From the NCBI GenBank assembly GCA_905250025.1, contig CAJNOJ010000132.1:108592-172591 (forward strand): a stretch of DNA of 64,000 nt. The letters are read 5' to 3'. The stretch comes from Adineta ricciae (lineage: Eukaryota > Rotifera > Eurotatoria > Adinetida > Adinetidae). Under the pieces are notes generated by a model that worked only from the letters and a program-made list of their open reading frames with translations, had not been told where the DNA came from and did not search any database. Shown piece after piece: positions 1-64,000 of the stretch (within the stretch, counting starts at the first letter, position 1; every line of letters starts with the position of its first letter). The position numbers were made by a program, and so were the translations under genes.

Positions 1-376
1 TGTTTTAGTCCTCAAGTTTTTCATGTATAACTGCCACATCAACATCCATAGATTCTTCTTTCTTTTTAGTTATCTACACTTTTCACAATCGCCCCACTAT
101 TCTTGTCGCGTGGACTATGAAAATAAATACTGATATGCCGACTTCTTGATAATACGGACGAATCCGGAGGGAACGTTTCGTTTTTGTTCGCCAGCAGAGT
201 TTGAGAATGAAAGAATGAGAATATTATATAGTGACGAAAAATCGAAAGTTGGCGGTGACAATTATTCGTAGTTGTATGAGAAGAAAACTGGCAAACATAA
301 ATCATCACTGTTGAGCTTTATTTCAGTGTAAGTGTAAGAAGTCTTTCTAGTATATTATCTTAATAATTCAAACAAA

Positions 377-751
377 TTACAAATTACCAACAAAAAAATG
401 TCTCACAAATAAAGTTGAAAAGAAAAGAAAACATAGTTTTGTTCCTTGTAATGCGTTGCCATCACATTTACCTTCATTAATATGGTCTTGCTTTGATGTA
501 TCGCATGACAAATACTGTTTTGAGCAACGTATTTCACAATCAATGTCAGTACAAAAAGTATTATTTTCATAGTAAATAATTCCTATGAGTTTCGGTGTGC
601 ATCTTGTATATCGAGGATCATAACAACAGTTGCAAAGACATTTTCTCGATTTTGCTGTAAGCTGCTGCGTTTTGAACGCTGCATTTGGTTCACTATCAAT
701 TTGCGTTATCCAAAGGAAACAGATCAATAGAATAGCTGTTGAAACCTTCAT
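377..751 (-). CDS. Small secreted cysteine-rich protein, 124 aa
   Basis: Family not recognised. The protein starts with a clear signal peptide (MKVSTAILLICFLWITQIDS), followed by a mature part with about ten cysteines clustered in two groups, one around CLCNCCYD and one around CTDIDCEIRCSKQYLSC. This is the layout of a disulfide-rich extracellular peptide. The C-terminus turns hydrophobic again (about residues 105-120, FLFFSTLFVRHFF), so a membrane anchor or a missed 3' intron is possible. The ATG is supported by a TATA box 52-60 bp upstream. It is divergent from the membrane-protein gene at 1259. The second copy at 14184-14558 keeps the frame and nearly all cysteines, which supports a real gene. 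Confidence 0.6.
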   Translation of the reverse strand: MKVSTAILLICFLWITQIDSEPNAAFKTQQLTAKSRKCLCNCCYDPRYTRCTPKLIGIIYYENNTFCTDIDCEIRCSKQYLSCDTSKQDHINEGKCDGNALQGTKLCFLFFSTLFVRHFFVGNL

Positions 752-802
752 TTTGATTTTCGTTCGTTGTGTACTTGCAGATAGATTTGGTGCGAACCTT
801 AG

Positions 803-811
803 TATTTATAG
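803..811 (-). promoter_or_regulatory. TATA box of the secreted Cys-rich gene
   Basis: On the minus strand this reads CTATAAATA, 52-60 bp before the ATG at 751. It is unchanged in the other copy at 14610-14618. Confidence 0.55.
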
Positions 812-871
812 AGGGTAGGAGTTTCGTTTTATCATTATTCTTATCAAAACTATCTTACTGTAGTCATTGTC

Positions 872-883
872 ATTGACGTCAAT
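872..883. promoter_or_regulatory. CRE-like palindrome ATTGACGTCAAT
   Basis: This is a 12-bp perfect palindrome with the CREB/ATF core TGACGTCA at 874-881. It lies between two divergent genes (ATG at 751 on minus and at 1259 on plus) and is kept intact at 14679-14690. The core is the known binding site of CREB/ATF bZIP factors. Use here is inference. Confidence 0.35.
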
Positions 884-1258
884 CGTGGACGGCAAAGATT
901 ATGTTTATACTGCTTTAGTTCGATCGATCATTGATGTGTCTATTCCATTTTCGAAATGAAAAAAAGAAGATTTCCAACGTAAAAATTGTTTTTTACTACC
1001 GCTCTTAAGTTGTATACTTAAAGGTATGACATTATTTTTATTTCTTGATCACGCACTTAGAAGTTACTCCATACACATATTGAAATAACATCAAAGAGTG
1101 AAATAATTCCAGCAGCATTTCATCTGACTCATAGTTGGAAAAATAGCAGTATTTTAGAGGGATTGAATTTTGTTGGTATTTTCCACAATGTGCATCGCAC
1201 TATTTATATTGCGATATTCAGATCGGATTTTAATAAAAATTTCCAAAAGGTGAATAGC

Positions 1259-1966
1259 ATGGCTCTAGAAATACATCAACAAGAACAAATCCAAGTGAGT
1301 ATGATAGGCGACACAGCAGTCGTGGCAGTGGCACAGCGAAGCACCATCGAAATGGGTATGCCTCGAAGGGCCTCGAAATTGGCATTTATTCGAAATACGT
1401 ATCCAGCTCATTACAACCATGTTGTACGTAATATGAATTCGCTCAATCATCAGACAAATACAAAGGCGAAGCATTCGATGCGCGGCGGACATTTTCTGCT
1501 CTATCGTTATATCATATTGCTTGCCATTATATTATGTTTAGTCTTCGGTGTTATCAGCATTTATGTCAAAGGATGTGCATCAGTCCCGTTCATTCTTACA
1601 GTGGTTTACATCGCCATTAGTATCTATAATATTGTTATTTATATAAAAAATCGACCACTTCTCAATCCTCTTTTGGCGATACCAGTACCAAGCGACATTC
1701 TACCTGAATTCATGAATGAGTTTTATACTGTGCCTATTAATGCTACTGTTCTCACTGGAGCAATTGCGGCTTTCGTAAATCCAGCTGTGATCGCAGCAGC
1801 CGTTAGGAAAGATAATGTTCAACTGTGTGAAATACAAATCATGTTATACGATGATCTTTACCTACGTCATTGTCGATTTCCGTGGGAAATTATCGTTCAT
1901 TTGCTCATATTCATTGTCTTATTCTTCTTGGCAATTGGTTTTGTCAGTGCTAAAGCGTCGTCTTGA
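1259..1966 (+). CDS. Multi-pass membrane protein of unknown function, 235 aa
   Basis: Family not recognised. The open frame reaches back to 1163, but the ATG at 1259 (MALEIHQQ) is preferred because the upstream frame is not conserved with the second copy, and a TATTTATA sequence sits about 50 bp before it. About 80 polar residues come first, then hydrophobic segments at roughly 80-101, 107-128 and 210-231. A milder hydrophobic, alanine-rich stretch lies at about 160-180. The N-terminus is therefore probably cytosolic, with three or four membrane spans. The copy at 15065-15772 has exactly the same length. Confidence 0.6.
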   Translation: MALEIHQQEQIQVSMIGDTAVVAVAQRSTIEMGMPRRASKLAFIRNTYPAHYNHVVRNMNSLNHQTNTKAKHSMRGGHFLLYRYIILLAIILCLVFGVISIYVKGCASVPFILTVVYIAISIYNIVIYIKNRPLLNPLLAIPVPSDILPEFMNEFYTVPINATVLTGAIAAFVNPAVIAAAVRKDNVQLCEIQIMLYDDLYLRHCRFPWEIIVHLLIFIVLFFLAIGFVSAKASS

Positions 1967-2857
1967 ACCACATATAAATACAAATTTTATTACTCGAAGA
2001 ACTATTCTGAACGCTCCTCACTAAATATCTCAGTTAATTAGGCGTGAATGCGCAAAACAATGTGTACCATGTATTTCACAATACGCTGGTGTCGAGCGAG
2101 ACAGAATGACTCATGCTTATATGTGTACATTTTTCAATTTTTTCATTCCATTGTTGTCTGCTTTTGTCACATTGCTGGTTTTTTTCCCTTTTTTCTTCCC
2201 TGCCTACATAAATTGCGCGTATTTCGACCGTAAAACAGCCATTTGTTCACTTTTTTTCCCATTATTTAATAACTATCAGGTTTGGAATACAACTAGAGGA
2301 AGACTTTATTCAGATATCGATTATGTATTCTTATCCCTAAGTTGTTGTCTAGTTAGCAATTTGCTATCGATTAGTCACCTCACTCGTGCCAGATATAGAT
2401 TGAATAGATGAATATTTTATCTCCAATCAGAATCAAAGTTGTATATAATCATTATATTATTAATAGTGGAATAAACATTAGTTTTGCAAAATTGTTTGAA
2501 TATAGGATGAAGTATTCCTAGATTTTTCAGTATATTAACATATTGTAGAAAAATTGCTTTTATTAATCGAGTGTTTTAAATTATCAGTATTCAATAGAGT
2601 CTCTAGATATATAGAAACTTATTTACTAGTTTGACAGTTGTCAGCCTTATACGCGCATGCATACAATTATACTACACTCCCCATGGATTTGCACCAATGC
2701 ACATTGATCTCTTTTTTTTGTCTTATTTTAGTAAACAAGGTTTCACCACCTTTTACCGGCGGTTTCAAAACAGCATAGTACCAGTAGAACGGTGCTTACA
2801 CAAACTTGCCTGACACGAATCAAAAGATTATTTGTACGTCACTAGCATCATAGACAC
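1967..2857. other. Intergenic, no gene seen
   Basis: AT-rich and T-rich stretch with homopolymers. A hydrophobic open frame at 2106-2411 is frameshifted in the other copy and is not accepted. The last 150 bp are presumably the leader of the gene at 2858. Confidence 0.5.
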
Positions 2858-3394
2858 ATGGCTGACGATAAAGAATTGATGTCACGCGTAGAAGAAATTC
2901 AAACTCTAGCTCAAACCAATGAAGATATGATGAAGCAAATCGATAATATGGGATCAAGAGTAGTTAACCTTACGACCTACGTCATAAGGTGCAACTACGG
3001 TATATTTACGGTTAAAGAAGTTCAGGAAGCTCAAAACGCAAATCAGATTGTCAACAACTGGCGTGAAAATATCCAGCTAACTGAAATTGAAGATATATTC
3101 AATGACAAAATTTCTTATACTTGTTCTTCGTACGGGCAACTAAAAACAGTCAATTCGGCTATGGCTCGAGTCGTTAAAAAATATAAATTGTTTGGAAGTA
3201 GTAGAACAGCTCTGGGCGAAATTTACAAATTCGCGAAGAACTTTCGTGTAATAAAAGCAGTATTAGAGAGAATAATTGCATTACTTAACAATGGTGGCGG
3301 TGGTCGTATGGATAAGATACGAGAACGGTTGGACAATCTTAACAATGAAATGAAAGCACTTCGTACTACATATACAAATATTCAATTTTCTTAG
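2858..3394 (+). CDS. Coiled-coil protein of unknown function, 178 aa
   Basis: Soluble, highly charged protein with no signal peptide and no membrane span. Heptad-like helices are visible at about residues 5-35 (EEIQTLAQTNEDMMKQIDNM) and 150-172 (DKIRERLDNLNNEMKALR), joined by a lysine-rich middle and a short glycine run (about 145-149). The layout suggests an oligomerising helical protein. I do not recognise a family. This copy is intact. The copy at 16662-17198 has the same length but codon 68 (TGG here) reads TGA there. Confidence 0.55.
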   Translation: MADDKELMSRVEEIQTLAQTNEDMMKQIDNMGSRVVNLTTYVIRCNYGIFTVKEVQEAQNANQIVNNWRENIQLTEIEDIFNDKISYTCSSYGQLKTVNSAMARVVKKYKLFGSSRTALGEIYKFAKNFRVIKAVLERIIALLNNGGGGRMDKIRERLDNLNNEMKALRTTYTNIQFS

Positions 3395-3690
3395 AATGGA
3401 GTGCCCCACTCTAGCCGAGTATCGCAAGCGAACATACAATTTTTATTTGAATCAGCCATTTTTTATACAAGAAAATCATGAAATAAATAATTTCACTTCC
3501 TTTAGGTTACCTTATCATACGAAATATCGATTGCACGTTTTTTTCCTCATTTTGTTTTTACCTACCTCATTACATCCCTGATTTATTGCTTTTTTTCACC
3601 AATCTCTGCGTAAGAATCAATCAAACGAATAGTCATGCCTTCGATCACTATTTAAATATGAAATAGCAATTGCCTATTTTCATTTACAAA

Positions 3691-4115
3691 ATGTCTTTCA
3701 AGTATGTTGTTTTCGATAATACTTTCCATTTGGAATGAATCTGATCTTCTTTTATAGTTCATATTACAATTGGAATTCGTATCAACATGTTATTGATGCA
3801 TCTAAACGCCCGAGAGCAGTGACGATAAATGAGCAAAATCCTGAAATCGTCTTGAAAAAGATAGATCAATGGTTGTCTCAACACTATCCTGGTTTTCAAA
3901 TCAATCACGTCGAAATAGTCAAACCGGATCGTCGAGTATATGCTCGGGCTAGTTTTCGTACAGCAGATCGTCAGGAAAAAACTGTTCTCTTCGATGTCAC
4001 CGCTGCAGCACAGAGTTATATGAATACAATGATGCGAATGTTTTCTCCTGGAACAGTCGTTCGTCTATGGCCAGGAGCAGGCTCAAGAGCAACACGATAT
4101 GAACTTCTTATCTAA
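3691..4115 (+). CDS. Small conserved protein, 122 aa, one 56-nt intron
   Basis: Exons 3691-3701 and 3758-4115; intron 3702-3757 with donor GTATGT and acceptor TATAG. The spliced start reads MSFNSYYNWNSYQHVIDASK. Ignoring the intron gives a less likely start at 3735 that reads through the intron end. The splice is supported by exact conservation of both sites and the 56-nt length in the second copy (17490-17914). The protein is compact and soluble, with an alternating strand/helix look, an Arg-rich middle (KPDRRVYARASFRTADRQ) and a C-terminus rich in Gly and Arg. Function unknown. A TATTTAAATA sequence at 3649-3658 may be the TATA element. Confidence 0.65.
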
Positions 4116-4400
4116 CGTCAGCCGATGACGAACTAGTTTTTCTTCTTCGAATCAAAATAAAATGAATACGCATGAGCGTGCAAAAAATTTTAAATCTCAA
4201 AAGATACTGTGTATAAAAATTGTCCAGGACAGCTTTACCTGTTGTTTCCATGTTCAAATTCTACATCTGTGATGTGGAATCAAATATTAAATGGCTCGAG
4301 AAAGTTTGATTAGCTCGATATAATAAAGAGCAATTCCAGTAACTTCAACAGAACTGTAATTGGAAAAGCATCTAAACACCGATGAAGAAAGAGACAAAGG

Positions 4401-4486
4401 AATTCTTTCGAGTATGACCTATTTAAAACATGTTTAACGCCATTATATAGGTCACCAAAGATAAGTTAATCTGTAAACGGTAGACT
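4401..4486 (-). promoter_or_regulatory. Orphan copy of the kelch promoter module
   Basis: This 85-bp stretch resembles the promoter of the kelch gene (6064-6147) over its length, in the same orientation, at roughly three bases in four. On the minus strand it carries a TATATAA box and an inverted pair, TGACCTAT at 4415-4422 and ATAGGTCA at 4447-4454. No kelch gene follows it on the minus strand, so it may be the leftover promoter of a lost tandem kelch copy. TGACCT/AGGTCA is also the known nuclear-receptor half-site. Confidence 0.4.
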
Positions 4487-4728
4487 TTGAATAATTTTTT
4501 TCCACATGCATATTATGTTTATGTTCAACGTATATCATCTCGAGAATGTGGCTAAGATTGCATTTACAAATAGGCGATACCTAGTTTTTCCTAGTCAATT
4601 TATTTCATTAATGACTAAAAGGAGAACGAATCAATACAAAATAAGCGAAATGTTTTCTTCGAGTGTCTATTTGTTTCACGAAATCGATAGTCTTCTTCTT
4701 ATTTAATTGGCATACTATCCATAGGTAT

Positions 4729-6015
4729 TTAATCGTCCGTCGATAGACTATATATTTCCGGTGTGACTTGAGCCCCGTGATCCACATCATTGCCACCAAT
4801 AACCATCACGTCTCCATTGGCTAGCACCGTCGCTGTGTGACTTTGTCGTTTGTAATGCATACTGTTCGTACTTGTCCATTTTCCTGTCGCGGGATCATAC
4901 AGCTCCGCATTATTTGAAGAGGCGCCAGTGTCATCTTGTCCACCAGAAACTAAGACTTTTCCATTGTTCAATAAAGATGCAGCATGCCCAAATCGTCCTC
5001 GAACCATGGCACCAGTAATTGTCCATGTTTCAGTCGATGGATCAAACAGTTCGGTGGTGTTTAAAACATCATCATTATCATCTATTCCACCAACGGCTAA
5101 CACTTTACCGTTCGTCAGTAATGTGAGAGTGTGAAGATATCGCTTGTATTTCATACTGGCCACAGCTTTCCACGTACCTGTCGATGAATCATATAGTTCT
5201 GCGTTGTCTATGGTATTAAATGGAAGGTCATGTCCACCGGTTACTAAAACGTTGCCATTTTTCAGCGCAGCTGCCGCATGCCATTTGCGTTCATATTGCA
5301 AATTTGTAGTCTGTGTCCATGATTCCATTTTTGGATCATATACTTCAGCAGTGTTCGGTTGATCATCGGATCCACCAACAACTAGAACATTTCCATTTCG
5401 TAATAAGGTTGCCGTGTGAAAGCACCGTTGAACATTCATCTGATTGGTAGGTATCCAGAATCCTGTTGATGCTTCGTACAATTCACACTGACTCATGAGG
5501 CCTTCGACATTATTCAAAGGTGCTGGTGTACCAGCATATCCTCCAGCAATTAGGACTTTGCCATTTTTCAAAGTAGTTGATGTATGAAACCATCGACAAT
5601 CAGTCATGTCAAATGTCTTCGTCCAATTTTTAGTTGTCGGATCGTATAGTTCTCCCGTGGAGCAAACATCATCACCTATTCCACCACTGACTAACACCTT
5701 TCCATCTGGTGATAAACTTGCTGCTTGATACATGCGCGGATTACTTAATTGACCAGTCTCAGTCCATTCTAAAGGCAAACGAAAAAAAAAACAGCTTGCC
5801 GATGTTCGCCAGCGACCAATCACTGATCTTACTCGATTGTTTAATTGCTGTCCTTGATCTAAAACCAACAGGAGTTGCACTTCCGAGATTTGTCGATATA
5901 ACAACGAGTAATGTCGACAACACCAGCAAGAGAGTGTCTAAAGATTATTCGCAACGCACTATTATGAGAAATATCCAAAAAGGAGTTATTTACTGCGTAT
6001 TGATTTACTGTGCAT
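4729..6015 (-). CDS. Secreted seven-kelch beta-propeller protein, 388 aa
   Basis: Three exons on the minus strand: 6015-5994, 5937-5833 and 5768-4729. Introns are 5938-5993 (56 nt) and 5769-5832 (64 nt, donor GTAAGA, acceptor after a long T tract). The spliced N-terminus is a signal peptide (MHSKSIRNTLLLVLSTLLV). Seven kelch motifs of about 48 residues follow, each with the double glycine of kelch blades (for example NGKVLVSGG, NGKVLIAGG, NGNVLVVGG) and a later ELYDP and W. This predicts a complete seven-bladed propeller that is secreted. Kelch propellers usually bind partners, and no galactose-oxidase catalytic residues were identified. A T10 run in intron 2 gives the false impression of a frameshift relative to the other copy. 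Confidence 0.8.
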
Positions 6016-6063
6016 CTTGTGTTTTACAAAGGTGAACTGAAATAAAGAAAAAAAAAGGAATGA

Positions 6064-6147
6064 GTTCCTTCGCGTTTGACCTATTTGATACTTATTTAAC
6101 GCGGTTATATGGGTCAAAAAAGGCATCAGTACTCTTTACAGTAGACC
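6064..6147 (-). promoter_or_regulatory. Kelch gene promoter with inverted TTGACC/GGTCAA
   Basis: Lies 49-132 bp upstream of the kelch ATG at 6015. It holds TTGACC at 6076-6081 and GGTCAA at 6112-6117 in inverted arrangement, and on the minus strand a CATATAACC TATA-like box. It is related along its length to 4401-4486. The other copy (19945-20028) keeps the module, but the second arm has changed to GGCCAA. Confidence 0.45.
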
Positions 6148-8144
6148 TCCAATATTTAAATATGAAACGTTATCTCTCTATGCAGTGTATATAGAAAACC
6201 TAAGTAATATCATTCTCGTTCTTTTGTCAAAATATAAAATAAAGATAAAATATAATTCATATTTACTCTCAAATGGATTCAAAATAACTCATGTATAGAA
6301 GGCCATTGATGGCGAGAATGCAGGGGGTAAGAAGGAGAAAAACAAATATCCCTATTAAAATTAAAGTAATGCTACGTAAATACAACAAGATAGTTCACTG
6401 ATACTTTCTAAATTTATATTTACAATTGAAATAAAAGTTGGAGAAAACGAATTTGTCCATTGTTTATAACCAAACTGGAAGAACGAACGTTTGGTTTCTC
6501 AGGCTTTTAGAAAATAATGATCAAAACGGTGAATAAATTTCTTTTCATTCGATCATAATTTTTAATGAGTGAACAATACACTCGTTCAGAAACACCAACC
6601 AGCTGATGTATTTCTTTATGGTATGTTTTTTCTCTCTAATATTATCAGTGCCAAATGCCGCCGTTAAAATCTGTCGAAATGCATTTTTCATACCTTTATT
6701 TTCTTGTATTTATATGTGGAATGTCTTCTTGCACCTGGATGCATCTATTCAGTCATGCATTCGGGAATGCGCTGCTGAACAGGACTGCTAAGGGAATGTA
6801 ACAGTAAATGTTTATTTGTGATCGGAAAAATCGTGTTAGAATTGTTTTTATTTATAACTAACTATCAGATGCTCATCTACTGTAATAATCACCTACGAAG
6901 GTATGTATATCACATTCCATAGTAGAAAAGCAATATTATTCAATGGATTTTAGAAACCACTCTTCCAACAACAGCTGCTGATTTGGATAAAACAAATAAG
7001 ATTAATATCGAGTTTCTCTTTATCATTTATTAGTAATGAATAAGAATTTAGTGAGAAAGGACGATGGGGAGAAACTGGTTCTTACGTGGGTGGAACAGAC
7101 AATGGCTATCTCGCGGAGTAGGATCAGAGCAGCTCAATTACTCAAATAATCTACAATGCCAATTACATTTACGTTCTGTTTAACATTGGCTCTGCTTCAA
7201 GGTAACAATTTAATGAAGCAAATGTCGTCCCAGCGCCCTTTTTGTATTTCACCGATCGTGACAAGTGCTACCTCTTTGGATACAAATCAAACTTTACGTT
7301 CATGTGGTAATTTATCAGCATAAATTATCTGGTCGATCGTTACAAAAATCAAAATGACAATGCTGTCGAATCGCCAACATTTTTAGATCACGTCTGCATT
7401 GATGCTCAACAATACTCGTTTTCTGCATGTTCACATTAAGATGACATTTGGAACAGCGCTTATGTAGATAAAATAGCCCTAATCGCACATCGTTTAATTC
7501 AACTGATTGCAATCCAATGTTTTATTCAAGGTTTTCAGTTATTTCAATCCGACGTAAATGCCTGCATCTCCTCATTGCATGACTGTATTACCACTATTCT
7601 GTGATCGAATGAATTTCTCAAAGATATAAAAACAAGCAACCAAGTGCGAGCGACGTTTGAGTTCAAGAAAAATATCATAAGCCGTTTTGACAGAAAGGTA
7701 AGACACGATCTTTTCACTGGTAAAAATAATTATTCACTCCAATGCTCATCTCGAATAACATTCTATTCACTTTTATCGACGAAGCATAACAATCTGCGTC
7801 TAATAAGCGTGTTAACTATACCATCACACCAAATGTTTAATTCACACGAACACGAACGGAACTACTGCTAAACGACTACATTCCTATCTAGAAGAGCGAA
7901 GTTCACGAAAACGTTAATAAAGAGATAAACAGAGAAACGGGAAATTCAACTGAAAGAAAAAAATACAATTAAACACCAATTCCATGACTTCATCAAAAAC
8001 CAATATAACAATTCCTGATATGAAAGATCTGGCTGAGACAATTTGTTAATTTCCGCTATAAATTGACATGTTGACAGCGGTTTTTACACTTAAGACGAAC
8101 CTGAAAGTACTTTCTCTTTGCTGAGCCTTCTGTGGGTTTTCAAT
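6148..8144. other. Intergenic with possible gene relic
   Basis: About 2 kb without an accepted gene. The only coding-like piece is a possible broken two-exon secreted peptide at 7156-7323, listed separately. Other short frames, such as 6606-6791, are disrupted in the second copy. Confidence 0.45.
7156..7323 (+). pseudogene. Possible relic of a tiny secreted-peptide gene
   Basis: Exon 1 at 7156-7201 encodes a signal-peptide-like start (MPITFTFCLTLALLQ) and ends at a GTAACA donor. After 51 nt, the typical intron length here, a second piece at 7253-7323 continues in frame to a stop (VTSATSLDTNQTLRSCGNLSA). The acceptor AG is missing here (TTTCAC). In the second copy (21104-21271) the acceptor is present, but exon 1 has a TAG and the donor has changed from GG-TAAC to GA-TAAC. 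Both copies look dead through different lesions. The original would be only about 38 aa, so this is tentative. Confidence 0.25.
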
Positions 8145-9170
8145 ATGTGCAATTCTACTATTGCAGTCTTCGATTCTGTTACTCAACAAACGATTATTTA
8201 CTTTGGTTTCTCCCTTTTTATTCTTGGTCTCATTGGCAATCTGTTGACTCTCCTTGTATTCCTCAGTCTCGAAACATTCAGACAAAACTCCTGTGCATTC
8301 TACCTCACAATCATGTCTTTTATCAACACGTTTCACTTATTCACTGGTTTGTTAACTTTCATCATGATCAATGGTTTTAAAATCAACTGGACCGATGCAT
8401 CAGTGGCCTATTGCAAATTTCGTGCATTCTATATTCAGACATGTGCAATGATATCTTTGTCATGCATGTGCTTGGCGACAGTCGATCAGTTCTTGGCAAC
8501 GCAGTCTAATCGTCGCTGGCATCGATTCAATAGCATCAAAGTAGCTAGGTCGGTTGTTACAGGTATAGCTATATGTGTAACTGCATATTGTATTCCTTTC
8601 CTCGTATATCGTGGTCATACGACATCAAGCAGCACAGGTCAAGCGATTTGTGACATTACAAATAATGTCTTTGCAAGTTATCGTATTTTTCATAACTCTT
8701 TCCTCGCGGGTATTATTCCATTGCTCATTATGAGTATATTTGGTCTGTTAGCATATCGAAACGTTCAGCAAATAGCCTATCGGACAATACCATTAGTCCG
8801 ACGTGAATTAGACAAACAGTTAACATCAATGGTCCTTATTCAAATTTTCTACAACGTTCTTGCTATCACACCGTCATTAACCGTAGGCCTTTATTATTTG
8901 ATCTTAGACAAAACGCTCGATGCATGCAGTAAAACAATATTAAACATTCTCTTAAATCTGTTAGCCGTTATCTATTATTTTTACTATGTGGTGAGTACGA
9001 GCCGAAATTTACCGAAAATCAAAATATAATCTCATATATTTCAGGGTTCATTCTATATCTACGTATGTGTATCGAAAAGATTCCGTCATCAACTGATCTA
9101 CGTATTATTTACAGTGCATGCGAATCGTTTTCGCCAACACAACAATCGAATCAAACCCGTAGCACAGTGA
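8145..9170 (+). CDS. Class A (rhodopsin-like) G-protein-coupled receptor, 323 aa
   Basis: Exons 8145-8990 and 9045-9170; intron 8991-9044 (54 nt, GTGAGT...TTTCAG). Splicing completes helix 7 (NILLNLLAVIYYFYYVGSF) and adds a basic cytosolic tail (SKRFRHQL). Without the splice the frame ends 13 residues into the intron. Start chosen at MCNST because the open frame further upstream has no ATG. Seven hydrophobic segments are visible. Helix 1 has the GN signature (IGNLLTLLVF), an NST glycosylation site sits near the N-terminus, and helix 3 ends in VDQF where DRY is usual. Cysteines before helix 3 and in loop 2 can form the usual disulfide. Similar to bdelloid FMRFamide-receptor-like chemosensory receptors. 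Ligand unknown. Confidence 0.8.
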
Positions 9171-11198
9171 CTCCACCTCCTCTCAACGCTCCGTGTACCC
9201 ATGTAACTCTGAGTCAGTATAAACGCAAATGAGTCGTTTCACTCCACATGTTATTATCAAAAAGCTCCTATCATAGAAGTACTTTGTGCGTGGTATATTT
9301 CGTCTTTAGTTCGTGAATAAATGCATATTTCATCTGAGAGAGGTTTTGTCTTTATATTCAACGGTGTCGAAATTTCTGTAGAAATGCGTTTGTTAACAAG
9401 AAAACTATCGCTTTTTGTTATAGTAATAATGATAGTGCGAATGAACTGGGGATGAATGCATTCAGTTATCTCATAGCCGTGTTTCTATGTTTACGAAAGA
9501 GAGTTTCATGATGAGAGGACTGAACCGCTTTCCTATGAATTCAAGTCAAAAGCTTCTCACGGCTGCAAATTTACGAGATTTTCTTGCATTACTGAGATAA
9601 CTCAGCTCTGAAGCTGGGGAACTATTGCAAATATCGAATAACGAACGAACCAACCAGATGGTTGATTCCGGTTATAAACAATGAAGGAAAATGGTTTCAC
9701 TAGCGTTTTGTAATACATACTCGGCGAAGTCGTCGTTTTCACGGTAGTTAGTAATTAGTACTAGCATGTATATAAGTCTATCCTGAGATATTAAGTACAC
9801 AAGGTTAAATATGCTGATTTTTACCGCCATTTCTTGGTGAAAGGCCTGCATGGCTAGTTAGGTCTTGGTCATTTGAAGTTTGACGATTATTGATAGTTCT
9901 TATAAAGCGTGGCTAAGCTTTGAATATAATAATCATTCGTCTGTTTGACGCGTATTTTTCCGTAATTTTTTGAAATCTTATGATTACAGACAGTTCTCAA
10001 TTTTTGAGTCATGCGAGATTAAATTTCGTATTACAGTCCAACGATTCCTCTAAGATAGACGTGGGTAGCTTCAAATGAAAGACAACCAGTCATGCATCAA
10101 ACCGGTAAAGATAATGAGGGTGTCGTCCTACTGTTCCTTGAGAACAAATGGAAAGTCTATTTTTAAAACCTCATTGTCAGACAAAATGTCACGCGAGATT
10201 GTTATGCATACAAACATATCATGCACAAGATTAAAATAAATAATTTGAACATCAGACAATGCCGTATGAAATGAGATTTCAATACTCATATGGAGCGACT
10301 AGGGTTTGAATTGAACAAATGCGAAGAGTAGCAAGAAGCTATTATAATCAAATGGGATGCTTTGAAATTTCCCGTGTATTTTCAACTTATGAGTGTATCT
10401 ACGCAAGAATCAAATCTAATGCAATATGAACCACATTCTCAGACTCATTTTTTCTAGATAAATTATGGTTGCACCTAAAACACAGATTAGGTATTTATTC
10501 TTCCATAAACATATGGGAAAAACTTGAGTCGGATAAAGCCCTATACTTCCTGAAAAACTCTTGTATCTCGGTTATTTTAACAGTAACTGTCGGACAAGTT
10601 TGTGCGTATTCTCTTTTTACATACCACGCAATATTCGCTGCACTGAAATTCGGAAACTTTTTTTTCATCAATTTTTTAGTCCAACGGTACAATAAACTTG
10701 CAATTCGCTCATACACTATAAGACGAGCATGCGTTCAAAGATCGAATGGTACAAAGAGTTTCTATCTGATCTGATATAAAACATTAAGATTTTAGCTGGC
10801 GAAAAGGACGTTGTTGATCAACACCAGCATGAAAATCTAACTTGAGTTTTCTGCATCAGAAATATTTGTATGTTAAATCGTGTATGTTGAGACATTTGAT
10901 GAATTTTGTTTTATTCAATTCATTACAGACAGAAAAGCTTTAGTGAGATGAATTAAAAAAACCTTATTCAATGTGCATCTATATTTATCTTTTCGACATG
11001 GTGCAAAAAAAAGAGAACACACTGTTTCTTAAAATGAATTCTGCTCAAATAAAGTGCGTTTCTGCTCTCATTTATAATACGATTATTATGGAAATCACAA
11101 GACACGAGGATTATTTTGCACATGACTTCATGTAATCGTCTTAGAGTTCAGTATATATAATACAGCTGCTCTAAAGCATTTATCATCAGCGATCACGA
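9171..11198. other. Intergenic, 2 kb, no gene seen
   Basis: No frame here survives comparison with 23183-25222; the 101-aa frame at 10469-10774 is broken there by indels. It holds the presumed 3' end of receptor 1 and the promoter of receptor 2. A 62-bp segment between two TGCAAAT repeats (9564 and 9626) is absent from the other copy. Confidence 0.5.
11152..11160 (+). promoter_or_regulatory. TATA box of the second receptor gene
   Basis: TATATATAA, 39-47 bp before the ATG at 11199. The other copy has a shortened TATATAATA around 25179, also close to the start. Confidence 0.5.
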
Positions 11199-54444: not shown

Positions 54445-55043
54445 CTGACAGTTGATTGCTTAAACACGAATTTTTTCTCGACGACTAAAAATTAATCGAA
54501 GAGTTTGAATTTTTTTTGTATCTTCTTTATTGAAAAACATATATGTGTTAGAAAAGTTAACCTTCTCAGTCGTTGATTAACGCAATATTCGGTTTAAAAT
54601 GTGAACTGATGTGTTGAATAACTTCTTCGAACGAGAGCAGCTTGAATGTATCTCTTTCAAATCACTCAACTTCGTCCTTATATATTCTTGTTTTGATACA
54701 TAGATGGTTACATATTGCAACAAAATGACGCTTATTTATTTCAGATATAGCTAGATGTTATCGTTACTTGATTGATGGAAAGAATATCCTTGTTTTGATA
54801 AAGTATCTGTTTGCTAAAACAGCGTTCAAATTTCAGTAAAACGGAACTAATAGACTCACAAAGGAACTGGTGCCAATATGCGTCTAATTCTACGCTCCAG
54901 GATGAACGAGTGGAAAAGGAACGTTATATTTACGGTTTCATCTGCTTTATACAAATGACACCCAAGTCGTGATTATTATTTCAGTTAGATTATTCGTACA
55001 AAAGGGATAAAAAGATTGAAAAACAAGTCTCTCAACCACAAAT
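54445..55043. other. Intergenic, no gene seen
   Basis: Spacer between convergent genes. Lacks 22 bp near 54795 that the other copy has at about 56569-56590. Confidence 0.5.
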
Positions 55044-55165
55044 TTAATCATCATCAGTTTGTTGTAAAATGCTCAGACAGAGTGCCAACTGTTTCTTTTC
55101 CAAATAAGAATTCACTCGGCTAAGTACGGTTATTTTGATCGACTGTGTATCTTGTGAGTAATACG
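55044..55165 (-). CDS. NO VEIN-like protein, last 40 codons, cut at N
   Basis: Matches 56834-56955, the end of the DUF3883 region (YYSQDTQSIKITVLSRVNSY). The rest of this allele is missing until 61474. Confidence 0.7.
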
Positions 55166-55166: not shown

Positions 55167-55442
55167 GTTTCATCAATCATCGAACCAACGACGTTCGTTG
55201 ACTTACCAATAATGAATGAAACTCCTTTTCATATCGATCGTGTTCAACGTTTGACTACACCGCAAGTCATTCAATACAAACCATCAACAACTATTCAGCC
55301 ATCCATAGGTTCAATATTTCAAACAAGGTTAGCACTTGGTCGAGAAGATTCACCAGAAGAAAAATCCTTTCATATCAATCAATTACGACATCCAGCCATG
55401 AAACATTCATCGACTAATGAACGAGTATGGGCTTGGATATAA
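55167..55442 (+). CDS. Internal-repeat protein, C-terminal part
   Basis: In frame from the N to the stop, 91 codons, equal to residues 221-311 of 52763-53752 and almost identical (last residue Ile for Met). Contains the third internal repeat. Together with 46652-47223 it gives most of the second allele. Confidence 0.75.
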   Translation, partial: VSSIIEPTTFVDLPIMNETPFHIDRVQRLTTPQVIQYKPSTTIQPSIGSIFQTRLALGREDSPEEKSFHINQLRHPAMKHSSTNERVWAWI

Positions 55443-55820
55443 AAATATTCGTCACGTCTTTTTTAGCTGACGACGTACAGTTGCATTTTGATACACTTAA
55501 AGTAATGTGAATATGCACAAATATATAATGCACTCACATGTTCTATTCTCGCATTTTTTAAAGATGAATATTGCTTTATTGATTTTGCGTTCTACAATAA
55601 ATGACGCTGCTTGAATACTATTTTTATCCATTATGTAAATACGTCGAATTTTATTAATAACGATGTGTATGTAATATGACTCAGTTCCTCGCGAACGACA
55701 TCATTTGTTACTAGTTTTAATTACTTTTTTGCGTGCATCTTAAATCAAAAAATCATAGTATATACAAGGGGAGTAAAATTATTTTTCCTATACATTACAC
55801 TGCTCGCAAGCGGCAAGAAA

Positions 55821-56213
55821 ATGCATCGACTACCGACAATACTTGTTCTATTTCTCATACTTGTAATATATCTATTTGGTCATACTGAAAGCGCTTCTTG
55901 TGGTGCATACAATCCAACATTTTATACCTGTTGTAACGGAGTGCTTACTTTCGGATCCGGCAAGTCCTGCTGTGGTACAAAAGCCTATGATCCAACATTT
56001 TACACCTGTTGTAACGGAGTGCTTACTTTCGGATCCGGCAAGTCCTGCTGTGGTACAACAACCTATGATCCAACATTTTACACCTGTTGTAACGGAGTGC
56101 TTACTTTCGGATCCGGCAAGTCCTGCTGTGGTACAACAGCCTATGATCCGACATTCTACACCTGCTGTAATGGTGCTCTAACGTTTGGACGAGGTTTAGC
56201 CTGTGGAAAATAG
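55821..56213 (+). CDS. Galaxin-like secreted repeat protein, second copy, 130 aa, 4 repeats
   Basis: Allele-like copy of 54130-54444 with an extra 26-aa (78-bp) unit. The inner units are almost identical in DNA, pointing to recent gain by unequal exchange or slippage, and all cysteines are kept. One unit has KAYDP and another TTYDP. The TATA box upstream is altered. Confidence 0.75.
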   Translation: MHRLPTILVLFLILVIYLFGHTESASCGAYNPTFYTCCNGVLTFGSGKSCCGTKAYDPTFYTCCNGVLTFGSGKSCCGTTTYDPTFYTCCNGVLTFGSGKSCCGTTAYDPTFYTCCNGALTFGRGLACGK

Positions 56214-56833
56214 CTGACAGTTGATTGCTTAAACACGAATTTTTTCTCGACGACTAAAAATTAATCGAAGAGTTTGAATTTTTTTGTATCATCTTTATTG
56301 AAAAATATATATGTGTTAGAAAAATTAACCTTCTCAATCGTTGATTAACGCAATATCCGGTTTAAAATGTGAACTGATGTGTTGAATAACTTCTTCGAAC
56401 GAGAGCAGCTTGAATGTATCTCTTTCAAATCACTCAACTTCTTCCTTATATATTCTTGTTTTGACACATAGATGGTTACATATTGCAACAAAATGACGCT
56501 TATTTATTTCAGATATAGCTAGATGTTATCGTCACTTGATTGATGGAAAGAATATCCTCGCTTTGATAAAACTCTTCGATTGCTTTAATAAAGTATCTGT
56601 TTGCTAAAACAGCGTTCAAATTTCAGTAAAACGGAATTAATAGACTCACAAAGGAATTGGCGCCAATATGCGTCTAATTCTACGCTCTAGGATGAACGAG
56701 TGGAAAAGGAACGTTATATTTACGGTTTCATCTGCTTTATACAAATGACACCCAAGTCGTGATTATTATTTCAGTTAGATTATTCGTACAAAAGGGATAA
56801 AAAGACTGAAAAACAAGTCTCTCAACCACAAAC
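56214..56833. other. Intergenic, no gene seen
   Basis: Counterpart of 54445-55043. Confidence 0.5.
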
Positions 56834-59800
56834 TTAATCATCACCAGTTCGTTGTAAAATGCTCAGACAGAGTGCCAACTGTTTCTTTTCCAAATAAGAA
56901 TTCACTCGGCTAAGTACGGTTATTTTGATCGCTTCTGTATCTTGTGAATAATACACTCGGTAAATATGATAATTCTCAGGATGTTCAAGTAAACATTTGA
57001 TTTCACCAATGGATATTTGAAATGTATGCTGCTTATGATTTGTTGTTGTTTTCACTTCGATCAATTCGATTTGTCCATCTTTTTTCAAGCGAATATCATA
57101 CGGCAGACATGATTCTTGTTTTATATTCATCCACTCAACATGGTCATTTGGATATTTCCAACGGAGAAAATCGAAAACAATTTGTTCGCCTTGACGACCG
57201 ATAAGACTATCGGTTGTAGTGTTCGTTGGGTGAATTGTAATCGAAGAAATCGGCAGCGAAGAAAGATCAGAATCAGATAGAGTCGACACTCGAATACTTT
57301 CGAATCTAGCTATTTCAACTGGAGTAAATTTTGAAATATCAACAGTCGCAGCATGTGAATGAAGTGTTTTAGTTGATCGAACTTTCTCGTCGTCTCTATC
57401 AGAAACAGGAGGCTTGCTTTTTCTCGCAGGAGCACTCTGCGCAGTAGTTTCGGATGACGGAGAGACATTGGACTCGGGAGTTGCCGACGGTTCCGATGGA
57501 TATGATTTTGGAATTTCTACTGACTCGACAACATTTGCTTTCTCAGGAAAACAAGTGGGATTGTTCTCATCTTTTTCGGCTCTTGGACGAGATGGAGGCT
57601 TTCGCTCAGGTACAGGCTCGTTCATGACTTGCTCGATCAATTCAGCGGGTATATCAGTAAGTTCTATCTTTGAAGACACTTCCTCATTTTGTGAAGATGC
57701 GGATGGCAGTACAAGGTTCAAATAAACATTCGGAAACATCCATTTGTCATCCTTTGGTTGAGTAGCTATATGACCATATCGTGTTGTTAAGCCTAGTGCG
57801 CCTTCATCTTGAAAGATCTGCGATAATTCCATTATAAATGATACTAACTCAGGCGCAACTGTTCGATCATGCACAAGATATTTTGCCATTGTTTCAGCGT
57901 GACGTATGTGCGAGTTTTCGAACATTTTCAAAATATAGAATCGGCCGGCTTGTTCATCAATGTAGGTATCACACGTCTCTGTATGCAAAGTACTCTCCTG
58001 GTAATGATAAGAGATTTGAATACAGTCAACACAGACGAAATGCATACGGGCAAAAACGGAGGACAAATATTTCGCTCGTTCGTTATTGACGAGTGATTTT
58101 GTTAGTAGAAAGTACTGTATAATTGGCATGATATTGAAGTAGAACGTAAATAGATTTATGGACAGTTGTTCGTTCTCGACGTGAACTTGTACTCCTAACA
58201 CATCAGTTAAATTCTGAATGTCAAACAGTGAGCAGAAGCGATTGACGGATTCAGAGGATAAAGACCAATCTATAAAAAAAGAATAAAGACGATCTCAAAG
58301 CATACACATCGCTCAAAGTTCGTACCTGGCAATTGAACAATCGGTAAACTCTTGGCTAAACAACTGGCAAGATCAAGATTATTGGGATAATATGGTCGAT
58401 CTAGATATGTAACTCGTCTGGTCGTTTGGTTCGTGCAGGGAATGAATGCCAAACTAGCGCATCGTTCTACAAAAACAAACAATCATTCGATGGGTATGTA
58501 AAACAAATCTCTGATAATCACCTTTGATTTCTAATTGACGATTTTGTTGAAATGTTAATTGTATAACTACTTCAATCACTCGCCATAGATCATTTATAAC
58601 TTAATATTTGTGTTAATAGTAGAAGATAATCATCAATGGAAGGTTCCAAAGTGATTTGAAGTGTGTCAAGAAAAAATTTCTGTAAATGAGTATCATGATT
58701 GTAATATTGCTGAATAGAAATCCGACGTCGTGAATCCATAAGAATGTTACTATTCAAATTTGACAGCACTGACAATGGATCATGCCAATAGACTTGATGA
58801 GGAAACAGAAAACGGCCTTTGCCATTGTTTTCTGGCACGAATACAAGTGGCCAAAGACGAAAACGGCTAAGAAAATGATGAGTATTGTTGTCACTTATAA
58901 GAAACTGATATATGCGACGAATACTATCCAATGTTTCGTAGCACGGTTGACCAAATGTTTGTGGAAGAGCACAAGGTATTCTACAACGAACAAATCGTTC
59001 TTTTTGGATGAGCATAGCATAGTATCGTCAACTCACAGTTCGAGTTCATTTGGTGCATTCAACATCATCCATAGGATATTCTGATTTAAATCAGACGACC
59101 ATTTCATGAAGATTTCAAACATAGTTATAGGCAAAACGTGCTCCTTTAACCCGAGTGTGTTTACTACAAAGTCTCGATTAGTTAATGTTAGTTTTGCTTG
59201 ATCTAGATGTTGTACGTAGCAACGAAAGCATAATGTTTCACTTTTCGGATGTATATTATAGACATCGTCTGCTTTAGCTAGTCTGTTCCCTTCGATTGGT
59301 ATCCAAATATGATTTCTCAACGATAGACAGAATGTCGATGGAATACGTGTATCTGCATGTCTCCGTCCAGATTTGACTTGATCGGCAGATATAATCGATG
59401 CGAGATAATATTTCGACAATGTTGAATGATGACGATCTAAATAGGTGAGCAAACTGACGCAAAAATCAATGTCGGTAGCTGTATTGTTTAGCTGTGCAAC
59501 GAGTGTGTTGAATTCATCACAAGAACAATCTTCTATTATGAATGGTTGACAAATGATCGTAGCCAATTCGGCAGTAAAGCAAGCCCAATGAGTAGTTTGA
59601 AGTTGGAGAACATTGATGTAATCTAAAATCAATCAAAGGTGAAGAGTCGATAGAGAAAAAGAACGCTAATTACGTGTATCAGTTATGTTTATTTGCAGAA
59701 ATTCAGTAACATTGAGTTGATCAAGAAATCGAACGAAATTCTTGATGTTTTGATCTGTAGGAAACAACTCCGTACGAAAGTTATTGATGTAATCATCTGA

Positions 59801-61472
59801 GATGTATGTAAATTCATGTCTTGGCGGGTTTAAACATTCCAGTGATTTTGTGCATCCGTATGAAGATGTTAAATGTATTATGGTGCCAGGTGTATCAAGT
59901 CGAATGAATTGATTATTACGTGTTTTGATGACCATAAACTTCTTTAGTTGATCCAGATCGTTTTCGAATTGATTAAAATGTACATAGATACACAAGAGAA
60001 AAGCAACAAGAACAAAATCAGATTTCGATGAATAACGTGTCGAATCTCGAAGTGTAGGTAATATATACGAGCGATATATGTCCTTGACTTTCGGTTTATC
60101 AGTGATACCTATATGTCGAAGATATTCTTGTTTGACCGTACAAATGTTCGATACTTACCTAGCTTTCTAAGTAGAGAGACGATTGAGTCGTATCGTCGTG
60201 GAAATTCAGCTTCAATACATTCTAATAATCGTTCGTCAAGTTGAGATATATCGTCAAGAATAATCTTGAATGGTTTTGTGTAATGATTGATTTTCGGCAA
60301 TGGAAACAGTATTACTTCGTTGTTGTATTCATCCATAGATATTAATCGTACTTGGCCTCTCAGTGGAATTATCTTCAGTTGTTTCAACTCGTTTATTGTC
60401 GCACTTTCGTCTTTTTCGCTATAACCACCGCGTGACTGTTCGTATTCTTGTTGTTGCTGCTCAAGAACGTAATCGATACAGACTAGCCATTGAGCAACTG
60501 AAATGAAACTTATTTGTACAAGCATTTCTAAAACGAACGTGGTTAATAACTTACTTTGTTTGATACTCGATGTCTTTGTTGAATGTTCTTGGCCGTGTCG
60601 CGTGTACAATTCTTTGATAAGTCGAGTGATTGAAGAAAATTGTAACGGAGCACATCCTAATTTGATTAATGTTCGCTCATCGCATTCGGATATCAATTGT
60701 TCAGGTACGTAGTATTTATTAAAATGCGCGCAAAATAGTTCTTGAGGAAGAACCTTTCGTACGAATGGATCTTTTACCAGAACACATTGAGAAGTTTGAA
60801 CCCATTCGGTGTGTATCTGTCCTAGCTCATTTTCTATAGAGACGGGTAATTTAACGAAACCCATGAGAAGTTTCAGGCCGTCATCAACGAATCGATTGAA
60901 GTACCTATCCAATGCGTTACGAGTAGGAATAAATTTGAGAAAATAAGTTAAAATTTGAATATCTGTGATATTATTAAAGTTTCCTAACTCGGATAAGGAT
61001 GACATGAGTAAATCGGGTAACTGCTGAAAGGTTGTATAAGCTAATGGAAGAAGATGGATCATTTCCGATTTCAACCAATCATTCCAAATATTATCCTCAT
61101 GGATTTTCTCTCGTGTCACAGGTACCTCGAAATCAGCCTGGAGAATGAAACGAAACCCATATGAACGAATTGGTAAATAGGCGAAGACAGGTTGAGGTGA
61201 AATGGACTGCATAATCGAACTCTGAAGACCGCTGAGTGGATAGGCAAAGGCAATCGTTGTTGAATAGATATCGCCTTTAACTTCATGTAGTTTCTCCTAA
61301 AAACGACAGTCATTTGTCGAAGTTTCGGAAACTGATGTTACCTTGATATTTTGTGGTACTTCAAGAACTTTCTTTACAACGAGCCAAAAAGTTTTGATTA
61401 CTGCACCATTGATTGATTTCTCTTGCAATTCAATGATTTTGCCATCAGCGTGATCAATTCGAGTAAAAACTC
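56834..61472 (-). CDS. NO VEIN-like protein with C-terminal DUF3883, 5' end missing, frameshifted
   Basis: Exons 61472-61342, 61296-60555, 60497-60159, 60108-59674, 59622-59037, 58980-58522, 58466-58326 and 58269-56834; introns 45-57 nt. About 1,420 residues remain; the N-terminus, where this family has a GHKL (HSP90/histidine-kinase-type) ATPase, is beyond the N at 61473. YLPIRSYGFRFILQADF and the following REK..EDN.WN.WL match the segment just after that ATPase in NO VEIN/sacsin-type proteins. The C-terminus is DUF3883 (NOV_C), a PD-(D/E)XK-like fold: GRQGEQIVFDFL, LPYDIRL and IEVKTT carry the expected E, D and ExK. A Ser/Pro-rich linker precedes it. One extra base at about 58597-58599 shifts the frame; the exon sum is divisible by three only without it. 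Confidence 0.8.
58168..60693. repeat. Duplicated block E, copy 1
   Basis: Part of the NO VEIN-like gene; repeated at 61474-64000 in the same orientation. Confidence 0.9.
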
Positions 61473-61473
61473 N
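61473..61473. other. Single-N join
   Basis: Right side restarts at the equivalent of 58168, stepping back 3.3 kb inside the same gene. Confidence 0.95.
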
Positions 61474-64000
61474 GTTCGTTCTCGACGTGAACTTGTACTC
61501 CTAACACATCAGTTAAATTCTGAATGTCAAACAGGGAACAGAAGCGGTTGACGGATTCAGAGGATAAAGACCAATCTATAAAAAAAAAAAGAATAAAGAC
61601 GATCTCAAAACACACATATCGCTGAAAGTTCGTACTTGGCAATTGAACAATCGGTAAACTCTTGGCTAAACAATTGGCAAGATCAAGATTATTGGGATAA
61701 TATGGTCGATCTAGATATGTAACTCGTCTGGTCGTTTGGTTCGTGCAGGGAATGAATGCCAAACCAGCGCATCGTTCTACAAAAACAAACAATCATTCAA
61801 TGGGTATGTAAATCAAATCTCTGATAATCACCTTTGATTTCTAATTGGCGATTTTGTTGGAATGTTAATTGTATAACTACTTCAATCACTCGCCATAGAT
61901 CATTTATACTTAATATTTGTGTTAATAGCAGAAGATAGTCATCAATGGAAGGTTCCAAAGTGATTTGAAGTGTGTCAAGAAAAAATTTCTGTAAATGAGT
62001 ATCATGATTGTAATATTGTTGAATAGAAATCCGACGTTGCGAACTCATAAGAATGTTGCTATTCAAATTTGACAGCACTGACAATGGATCATGCCAATAG
62101 ACTTGATGAGGAAACAGAAAACGGCCTTTGCCATTGTTTTCTGGTACGAATACAAGTGGCCAAAGACGAAAACGGCTGAGAAAATGATGAGTATTGTTGT
62201 CACTTATAAGAAACTGATATATGCGACGAATACTATCCAATGTTTCGTAGCACGGTTGACCAGATGTTTGTGGAAGAGCACAAGGTATTCTACAACGAAC
62301 AAATCGTTTATTTTCGATGAGCATAGCATAGTCGTCAACTTACAGTTCGAGTTCATTTGGTGCATTCAACATCATCCATAGGATATTTTGATTTAAATTA
62401 GACGACCACTTCATGAAGAGTTCAAACATAGTTATAGGTAAAACGTGCTCCTTTAACCCGAGTGTATCTACTACAAAGCTTCGATTAGTTAATGTTAGTT
62501 TTGCTTGATCTAAATGCTGTACGTAGCGACGAAAACATAATGTTTCACTTTTCGGATGTATATTATAGACATCGTCTGCTTTAGCCAGTCTGTTTCCTTC
62601 GATTGGTATCCAAATATGATGTCTCAACGACAGACAGAATGTCGATGGAATACGTGTATCTGCCTGTCTCCGTCCAGATTTGACTTGATCGGCAGATATA
62701 ATCGATGCGAGATAATATTTCGACAATGTTGGATGGTGACGATCTAAATAGGTGAGCAAACTGACGCAGAAATCAATGTCGGTAGTTGTATTGTTTAGCT
62801 GTGCAACGAGTGTGTTGAATTCATCACAAGAACAATCTTCTATTATGAATGGTTGACAAATGATCGTAGCCAATTCGGCGGTAAAACAAGCCCAATGAGT
62901 AGTTTGAAGTTGGAGAACATTGATGTAATCTAAAATCAATCAAAGGTGAAGAGTCAATAAAGAAAAAGAACGCTAATTACGTATATCAGTTATATTTGTT
63001 TGCAGAAATTCAGTAACACTGAGTCGATCAAGGAATCGAACGAAATTCTTGATGTCTTGATCTGTACGAAACAAGTCCATGCGAAAATTATTGATGTAAT
63101 CATCTGATATGTATGTAAATTCATGTCTTGGCGGGTTTAAACATTCCAGCGATTTTATGCATCCGTATAAAGATGTTAAATGTATTATGGTGCCTGGTGT
63201 ATCAAGTCGAATGAATTGATTATTACGTGTTTTGATGACCATAAACTTCTTTAGCTGATCCACATCATTTTCGAATTGATTAAAATGTACATAAATACAC
63301 AAGAGAAAAGCAACAAGAACAAAATCAGATTTCGATGAATAACGCGTCGAATCTCGAAGTGTAGGTAATATATATGAGTGATATATGTCCTTGACTTTCG
63401 GTTTATCAGTGATACCTATATGTCGAAGATATTTTTGTTTGACCGTACAGATGTTCGATACTTACCGAGCTTTCTAAGTAGAGAGACGATTGAGTCGTAT
63501 CGTCGTGGAAATTCAGCTTCAATACATTCTAATAGTCGTTCGTCAAGTTGAGATATATCGTCAAGAATAATCTTGAACGGTTTTGTGTATTGATTGATTT
63601 TCGGCAATGGAAACAATATTACTTCGTTGTTGTATTCATCCATAGATATTAATCGTGCTTGACCTCTCAGTGGAATTATCTTCAGTTGTTTCAACTCGTT
63701 TATTGTCGCACTTTCGTCCTTTTCGCTATAACCACCGCGTGACTGTTCGTGTTCTTGTTGTTGCTGTTCAAGAACGTAATCGATACAGACTAGCCATTGA
63801 GCAACTGAAATGAAACTTATTCGTACAAGCATTTCCAAAACGAACCTGGCTAATAACTTACTTTGTTTGATACTCGATGTCTTTGTTGAATGTTCTTGGC
63901 CGTGTCGCGTGTACAATTCTTTGATAAGTCGAGTGATTGAAGAAAATTGTAACGGAGCACATCCTAATTTGATTAATGTTCGCTCATCGCATTCGGATAT
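61474..64000 (-). CDS. NO VEIN-like protein, second copy, middle part, runs off the window
   Basis: Exons from the right edge: 64000-63862 (continues outside), 63804-63466, 63415-62981, 62929-62344, 62289-61832, 61776-61636 and 61575-61474 (cut by N). Introns are 50-60 nt at the same places as in 56834-61472. The exon 62289-61832 is 458 nt, one less than its counterpart, and stays in frame (QILSINDLWRVIEVV), so this copy is the intact one at that site. The C-terminal DUF3883 of this allele appears in part at 55044-55165. Confidence 0.8.

Follow-up and report, generated by a model that had tools for sequence, protein, structure and literature searches.

Does this Adineta ricciae scaffold, on which the same genes recur side by side, describe a chromosome or the route by which an assembly was put together? 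The window, which is the whole 64,000-base stretch analyzed here, was described in a sequence-only reading as both alleles of one locus laid end to end, with doubt cast on whether the joins between them are chromosomal. Its scaffold, C132, belongs to the A. ricciae assembly ARIC003 (GCA_905250025.1). We conclude that C132 is almost certainly a false heterotype duplication, built from contigs of both alleles that were sorted by start, padded and partly gap-filled.

The window contains five N runs, one of 69 N (13245-13313) and four of a single N (36508, 47224, 55166 and 61473). All five lie where steps back in the sequence had been claimed, and at each of them earlier sequence is repeated in direct orientation. 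The runs delimit six contigs, all read on the plus strand and corresponding to scaffold pieces 19 to 24. Contig A1 (1-13244) is the right part of piece 19 (C132:96517-121835) and stops at the 69-N run; its bases 1-13229 are allelic to 13807-27268 in contig B1 (13314-36507, piece 20), with which they pair in direct orientation at 84-93% identity and in several alignment pieces. The first bases of B1, 13314-13806, match the 493 bases immediately upstream of the window. Further along, 31842-36505 of B1 recurs as 36509-41165 (96.0% identity) in contig A2 (36509-47223, piece 21), and 41101-47223 of A2 recurs as 47225-53334 (93.6%) in contig B2 (47225-55165, piece 22). B2 has its allelic counterparts in the right part of A2 and the left part of contig A3 (55167-61472, piece 23), in which 53477-55164 reappears as 55167-56954 at about 94% identity. 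Finally, 58168-60693 of A3 matches 61474-64000 at 96.0%, again as a direct repeat. These last bases are contig B3 (piece 24), which ends on the last base of the window and is followed by a run of 1,830 N. Overall, 56,795 of the 63,927 non-N bases in the window are found again in another piece.

A single-copy block does exist within B1, as the sequence-only reading held, but it is larger than claimed: because the A copy reaches only to 27268, the block spans 27269-31841 rather than 28473-31841. It has no allelic partner among the matches listed for the window, and a genome search for a further allelic copy returned none among its listed matches. The right edge of the block is probably collapsed shared sequence. 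The first 120 bases of A2 are the same as 31842-31961, which places its start at a fork. The claim that genes are cut at the N holds at the two ends that were checked: the frame at 46676-47223 is a truncated copy of the 321-aa frame at 52787-53752, and A1 ends within the counterpart of the frame at 27219-28484.

The alternation of pieces seen in the window is not confined to six of them, as first described, but runs through all 30 pieces of the scaffold. C132 comprises 278,781 bases for a locus of about 144 kb, and 85.8% of its bases are doubled; the expected doubling of gene counts holds to that extent and not for every base. Inter-piece alignments of at least 300 bases are direct in 39 cases and inverted in none. 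At 27 of the 29 scaffold joins, the start of the right-hand piece recurs to the left. In seven of these 27, the recurrence consists only of an exact dovetail of 200-221 bases with an earlier piece, which is the adjacent piece in six. Gaps of one N account for 26 of the 29. The scaffold holds 1,946 N, for a published assembly total of 65 kb, and its GC content is 35.96%, for a published 35.5% in an assembly with an N50 of 283.8 kb at L50 129 (PMC7943196).

That the joins are false, as had been suspected, can be judged from sequence alone because exact overlaps of fixed length link pieces that are not adjacent. Exact terminal matches of 221 bases occur at 19 of 60 piece ends and at 0 of 3,000 random positions; they comprise 11 ends beside a one-N gap, seven starts that pair with those ends, and one start that matches the interior of another piece. 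Similarly, matches of 120 or 121 bases occur at eight of 60 piece ends (seven starts and the final scaffold end, which adjoins no gap) and at two of 3,000 random positions. Four of the 11 exact dovetails connect non-adjacent pieces (3 to 5, 13 to 16, 16 to 19, and 17 to 20). For example, piece 19 starts with 221 bases that are also the last 221 of piece 16, with pieces 17 and 18 skipped. Likewise piece 17, whose end at C132:93775 lies 14.8 kb ahead of the window's start, shares its final 242 bases exactly with the beginning of piece 20 (B1, from window position 13314).

Fixed-length overlaps between neighboring contigs are the mark of a de Bruijn graph, here with k = 121, and the longer terminal matches contain about 100 gap-filled bases in addition. 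The remaining overlaps partly follow the same arithmetic. An overlap of 200 bases beside 21 N resolves into 121 + 79, and 79 + 21 fits a 100-N pad; the 242-base overlap at the piece after the 69 N resolves into 121 + 100 + 21 and fits such a pad as well. From these sums of overlap and gap, we infer the pad size, and the 69-N run is probably such a pad after partial filling. Two features do not fit it, namely the 1,830-N run and an overlap of 209 bases next to a gap of one N, and two further values, 207 and 150, have no explanation. Platanus with k = 222, which the 221-base overlaps had suggested, was dropped because 121 emerged from the piece starts, and it is this k that PMC7943196 names for the maxhap set.

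The order of the pieces is equally regular. Ranked by start coordinate, with contained pieces included and piece 25, which has no alignment, placed by default, the 30 pieces show 0 inversions among 435 pairs; ranked by end coordinate, they show 10. There are two ties in start: pieces 18 and 19 stand in end order, and pieces 6 and 7 are out by one base. This is the order that a reference-guided sorter such as RaGOO would leave. The RaGOO default pad is 100 N, and the gap filler would habitually leave one N. RaGOO orders contigs by the start and then the end of the primary alignment and joins them with N pads, for which sizes of 200 and 0 are named (PMC6816165). The methods of PMC7943196 name SPAdes with a final k of 121, RaGOO and GapCloser; K=121 is given for the maxhap set, and RaGOO and GapCloser for samples other than ARIC003.

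We propose that short-read de Bruijn contigs (k = 121) were assembled from both alleles of the one locus of about 144 kb. Many contig ends would be graph forks where the alleles share at least k bases, and other contigs would just break off. The contigs would then have been sorted by start on a common coordinate and strung together with a constant pad of 100 N between them, after which partial gap filling would have added about 100 bases to most left-hand ends and left one N. Because contigs from either allele align at the same place, sorting by start would interleave the alleles and make the line step back at the joins. The copies are allelic and in direct orientation, their exact overlaps have fixed lengths, graph neighbors are separated, and the order is that of the starts; SPAdes, a RaGOO-like sorter and a gap filler are the programs that we infer behind them.

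Whether the copies are alleles at all is settled by their divergence. The sequence-only reading took them for alleles, and its view is borne out by 6.2% substitutions and a pooled dS of 0.113 across 15 comparisons of hand-picked frames (the frame at 2846-3394 was left out for want of a listed partner); dN/dS exceeds 0.5 in four of the 15 (0.54, 0.65, 0.81 and 0.92). Bdelloids do carry ohnologous copies (PMC5916493), and the repeats might accordingly be homoeologs of a degenerate tetraploid genome or old segmental duplicates. In A. ricciae, however, published Ks is 0.135-0.14 for homologs (0.14, SD 0.036) and 1.27 for ohnologs (PMC5916493), so the copies diverge as alleles do; ohnologs are ruled out by dS, and this whole class of explanation is exceedingly improbable. 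Moreover, the best off-contig match of 36509-47223, among the matches listed with the query's own place left out, reaches only 74% over 474 bases. A real chromosomal arrangement would place alleles, or tandem duplicates of recent origin, one after another in the same direction on a chromosome, a structure once put forward for ameiotic bdelloids, and the direct repeats taken by themselves speak for it. It has a precedent in the same-scaffold homologous blocks of the 2013 A. vaga genome, counted in the Nowell 2018 reanalysis as 25, of which 23 were palindromes and two tandem (PMC5916493). Yet every step back in the window falls at N, with none crossed by continuous sequence, and the exact overlaps tie non-neighboring pieces together at fixed lengths that allele divergence would not lead one to expect. 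The Nowell 2018 study's own A. ricciae assembly, furthermore, had only two linked blocks (PMC5916493). We therefore regard a chromosomal origin of the series as scarcely credible, and it is just as hard to believe that the same-scaffold allelic series is even partly a chromosomal feature of A. ricciae, with alleles in series on one molecule and a locus that does not separate into haploid sets.

A rival that concerns the tool and not the artifact deserves somewhat more weight. SSPACE writes one n where contigs overlap, and a read-pair scaffolder of this type could have joined allelic contigs with one N for each negative gap, as in 26 of the 29 gaps here. SSPACE was indeed applied to two Rotaria species (PMC7943196). 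Against it, the 121/221 pattern and the sums at the gaps of 21 N and 69 N point to a pad of constant size that had been filled, and the start order is perfect even for contained pieces. We consider such a scaffolder an unlikely author of C132 and prefer start-sorted, padded and gap-filled contigs.

The two haplotype tilings that had been drawn through the window fit geometrically, with B1 facing A1 and A2, and B2 facing A2 and A3, but phase follows by exclusion only. The last 221 bases of A2 are identical to 53114-53334 of B2, and the first 221 of A3 to 53477-53697 of B2. Phase is not clean at 36508 because the last bases of B1 (36441-36507) differ from B2 at four positions and carry the A-type base of A2 at each, a mosaic of alleles that was probably made by gap filling. 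Outside the window, C132:93777-96515 holds a third copy that is 94% identical to both alleles over 1.1 kb, and among the three no pair is closer than the others. Parts of this scaffold piece also match contig C483 at 94%, and a dispersed repeat or misplaced contig therefore seems likelier than a third haplotype.

Other scaffolds were sampled on a small scale. A 30-kb sample of C1 contains one N, which is a single-N join. The end of its left piece is matched exactly over 184 bases by sequence 6.6 kb upstream, and neither 121 nor 221 accounts for this length; no exact match was found at the start of the right piece. A 5-kb sample of C522 has one run of 37 N. In two gene families, with loci counted by hand from listed hits and hits within a few kb on one contig taken as one locus, 59 listed loci gave two same-strand, same-scaffold pairs within 100 kb. 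Both belong to PF00227 (at least 39 loci), one on C4 (97.6% over 620 bases, 72 kb apart) and one on C522 (88% over 311 bases, 18 kb apart); PF00118, with at least 20 loci, gave none among the matches listed. This small count suggests that C132 is worse than the average scaffold of this assembly.

Most of the apparently duplicated genes on C132 are thus not real but two alleles shuffled into one line by assembly software. Because most of the sequence is doubled and alleles are mixed in the tail of at least one contig, false positives would be expected here from scans for tandem paralogues, gene conversion or linked alleles, and the pattern on C132 is no evidence on ameiotic genome structure. 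ARIC003 is described as a haploid reference with 49,015 coding sequences and a BUSCO duplication of 39% (PMC7943196). Exact end overlaps of fixed length that link non-neighboring pieces offer a test for false joins that requires no reads.

Among the papers listed by a literature search and in the passages of PMC7943196 consulted, no description of this fault in ARIC003 came up; three known systems come closest. As in RaGOO output, contigs stand in the order of their starts with N between them; the difference is that 26 of the 29 gaps here are of one N, supposedly after filling, and that the sections of PMC7943196 in which the scaffolding of ARIC003 was sought do not state the use of RaGOO on it. 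False heterotype duplication (PMC9516828) likewise keeps the alleles of a divergent locus as paralogues, with gaps between same-scaffold copies and inflated gene counts, and in the window the copies are separated by N at all five joins and diverge at allele level. Half read depth on each copy, one-copy k-mers and discordant linked reads would also be expected of such a duplication. C132 differs in its scaffold-wide alternation of 30 pieces and in exact end overlaps that reveal the assembly route. Finally, the 2013 A. vaga genome shares with C132 homologous copies on one Adineta scaffold, but its blocks are mostly palindromes (23 of 25; PMC5916493), whereas all 39 alignments here are direct and the joins are false.

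The sequence-only reading held that this window lays both alleles of one locus end to end in a zigzag, and this is correct; it belongs to a larger case of which the window is one part. Five N runs lie exactly where that reading placed them (13245-13313, 36508, 47224, 55166 and 61473), and each is followed by a repeat of earlier sequence in the same orientation. The whole scaffold (contig CAJNOJ010000132.1, here C132; the window spans C132:108592-172591) contains 29 N runs (26 of a single base, one of 21, one of 69 and one of 1,830) that divide it into 30 pieces, numbered here from 0. All 39 inter-piece alignments of at least 300 bases are direct and none is inverted, and 85.8% of scaffold bases (237,586 of 276,835) are duplicated in a different piece. 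Each piece was positioned on a common coordinate by alignment to earlier pieces (piece 25, which has no alignment, was set after its neighbor), which gives the locus a length of approximately 144 kb.

The doubled copies are alleles. Within the window, they differ by 1,734 substitutions (6.2%) and 88 gap openings in 28,347 alignment columns, and fifteen open-frame comparisons yield a pooled dS of 0.113 and dN of 0.039 (ratio 0.35; range 0.05-0.92). For A. ricciae, section 7 of PMC5916493 gives a Ks of 0.135-0.14 for homologs and 1.27 for ohnologs. Among the matches listed for block 36509-47223, a listing from which the query's own locus is absent, the best from a different contig reaches 74% across 474 bases. 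Kelch/galactose-oxidase-type repeat genes occur at 18609-19826 (minus strand; frame scanned, PF01344 and PF13418) and, as judged by eye, at 4729-5937 (minus) and 13314-13745 (plus). One allelic gene (43888-45180 and 50003-51292) has a dN/dS of 0.8-0.9 and is read as two frames in the former copy and a single 429-aa frame in the latter. Another pair (53753-55165 and 55680-56213) encodes a small, cysteine-rich, secreted-looking protein in which a 26-residue unit (78 bases) is repeated in tandem; with frames read by eye, the first allele has three units and the second has four, a real allelic difference provided that both contigs are right.

The scaffold joins are artefacts. For all 60 piece ends, we recorded the longest terminal stretch matched exactly by sequence outside that piece, with 3,000 random interior positions as a control. 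At 19 ends this match spans 221 bases and at eight it spans 120 or 121; the control returned these lengths at zero and two positions, respectively, and no match of 200 bases or more. Fixed-length end overlaps are a hallmark of contigs from de Bruijn graph assemblers. The eight shorter cases comprise seven piece starts and the final scaffold end, which no gap adjoins. The nineteen longer cases comprise eleven ends adjoining a one-N gap, seven starts paired with such ends, and one start that matches the interior of another piece. The pattern fits a k of 121 plus about 100 gap-filler bases on the left side of a 100-N pad. Beside the remaining 21-N gap, the overlap is 200 (121+79, and 79+21 = 100); at the piece after the 69-N gap, it is 242 (121+100+21). 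Two features disagree with such a pad: the 1,830-N run and one overlap of 209 bases.

Eleven exact dovetails join pieces, and four of these link non-neighbors on the scaffold (3 to 5, 13 to 16, 16 to 19, and 17 to 20). The contig that opens the window (piece 19) continues piece 16 rather than 18, and piece 20, starting at 13314, continues piece 17, whose end lies 14.8 kb to the left of the window. Exact identities mark other termini: the first 120 bases of 36509-47223 are identical to 31842-31961 and its last 221 to 53114-53334, while the first 221 of 55167-61472 are identical to 53477-53697. These look like forks at sequence common to both alleles; therefore, shared sequence has probably been collapsed at the right edge of the single-copy block 27269-31841. 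Its left edge, where the end of 1-13244 has a short unaligned tail, may be a real allelic difference. Also at this edge, a 421-aa frame (27219-28484) has a divergent-looking match to the tubulin GTPase domain (PF00091, E 4e-14).

The proposed division into two haplotype tilings fits the geometry, and phase follows by exclusion. Piece 13314-36507 lies opposite 1-13244 and 36509-47223, and 47225-55165 lies opposite 36509-47223 and 55167-61472, so 1-13244, 36509-47223 and 55167-61472 form one haplotype if neither facing piece switches phase. A switch is seen in the tail of 13314-36507, which differs from 36509-47223 at 36417 and 36427, then from 47225-55165 at four sites within 36446-36471, carrying the base of 36509-47223 at all four. 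This tail lies inside a stretch that the gap filler probably added, and an unwary scan would take the mosaic for recombination.

Regarding origin, the starts of the 30 pieces on the common coordinate show 0 of 435 inversions; their ends show 10, because some pieces are nested within others. RaGOO sorts contigs by where their primary alignment to a reference starts, then by where it ends, and inserts N pads between them (PMC6816165). If contigs from both alleles were sorted on one reference, the alleles would alternate and the sequence would step back at each join, producing the zigzag. In PMC7943196, reference assemblies are called haploid, Table 1 lists ARIC003 (GCA_905250025.1; 135.6 Mb, GC 35.5%, N50 283.8 kb, L50 129), and the methods named include SPAdes with a final k of 121 (maxhap set) and RaGOO and GapCloser (other samples). 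For ARIC003, we infer SPAdes contigs with a k of 121, a RaGOO-like sorter and a gap filler. A read-pair scaffolder remains a rival to RaGOO as the tool; the conclusion is unaffected by that choice.

With 86% of its bases doubled, this scaffold is probably worse than the assembly average. A genome search with two gene families (130,461,839 bases in 1,033 contigs, the shortest looked at being 10,113 bases; short scaffolds seem absent) found, by hand count among the matches listed, at least 59 loci and two same-scaffold pairs. Proteasome-family copies at G000:C4:1115596-1116206 and 1187775-1188385 lie 72 kb apart on one strand with 97.6% identity over 620 bases and may be an instance of this fault on a second scaffold. 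To the left of the window, C132:93777-96515 holds a third copy that matches both alleles at 94% identity over 1.1 kb, and other parts of it match contig C483 at 94%; the explanation may be a dispersed repeat, a contig set in the wrong place, or a third copy confined to this spot.

Among the features that PMC9516828 lists for false duplications, gaps between pairs are present here too; depth, k-mer copy and linked-read features are also listed there. As recounted in PMC5916493, same-scaffold homologs in A. vaga were taken in 2013 as a sign of ameiosis; the same paper (Nowell 2018) put some breaks in collinearity down to possible scaffolding errors and reported no more than two linked blocks in the A. 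ricciae assembly that it produced. The present scaffold adds a clear case of scaffolding error and lends no support to the older ameiosis reading.
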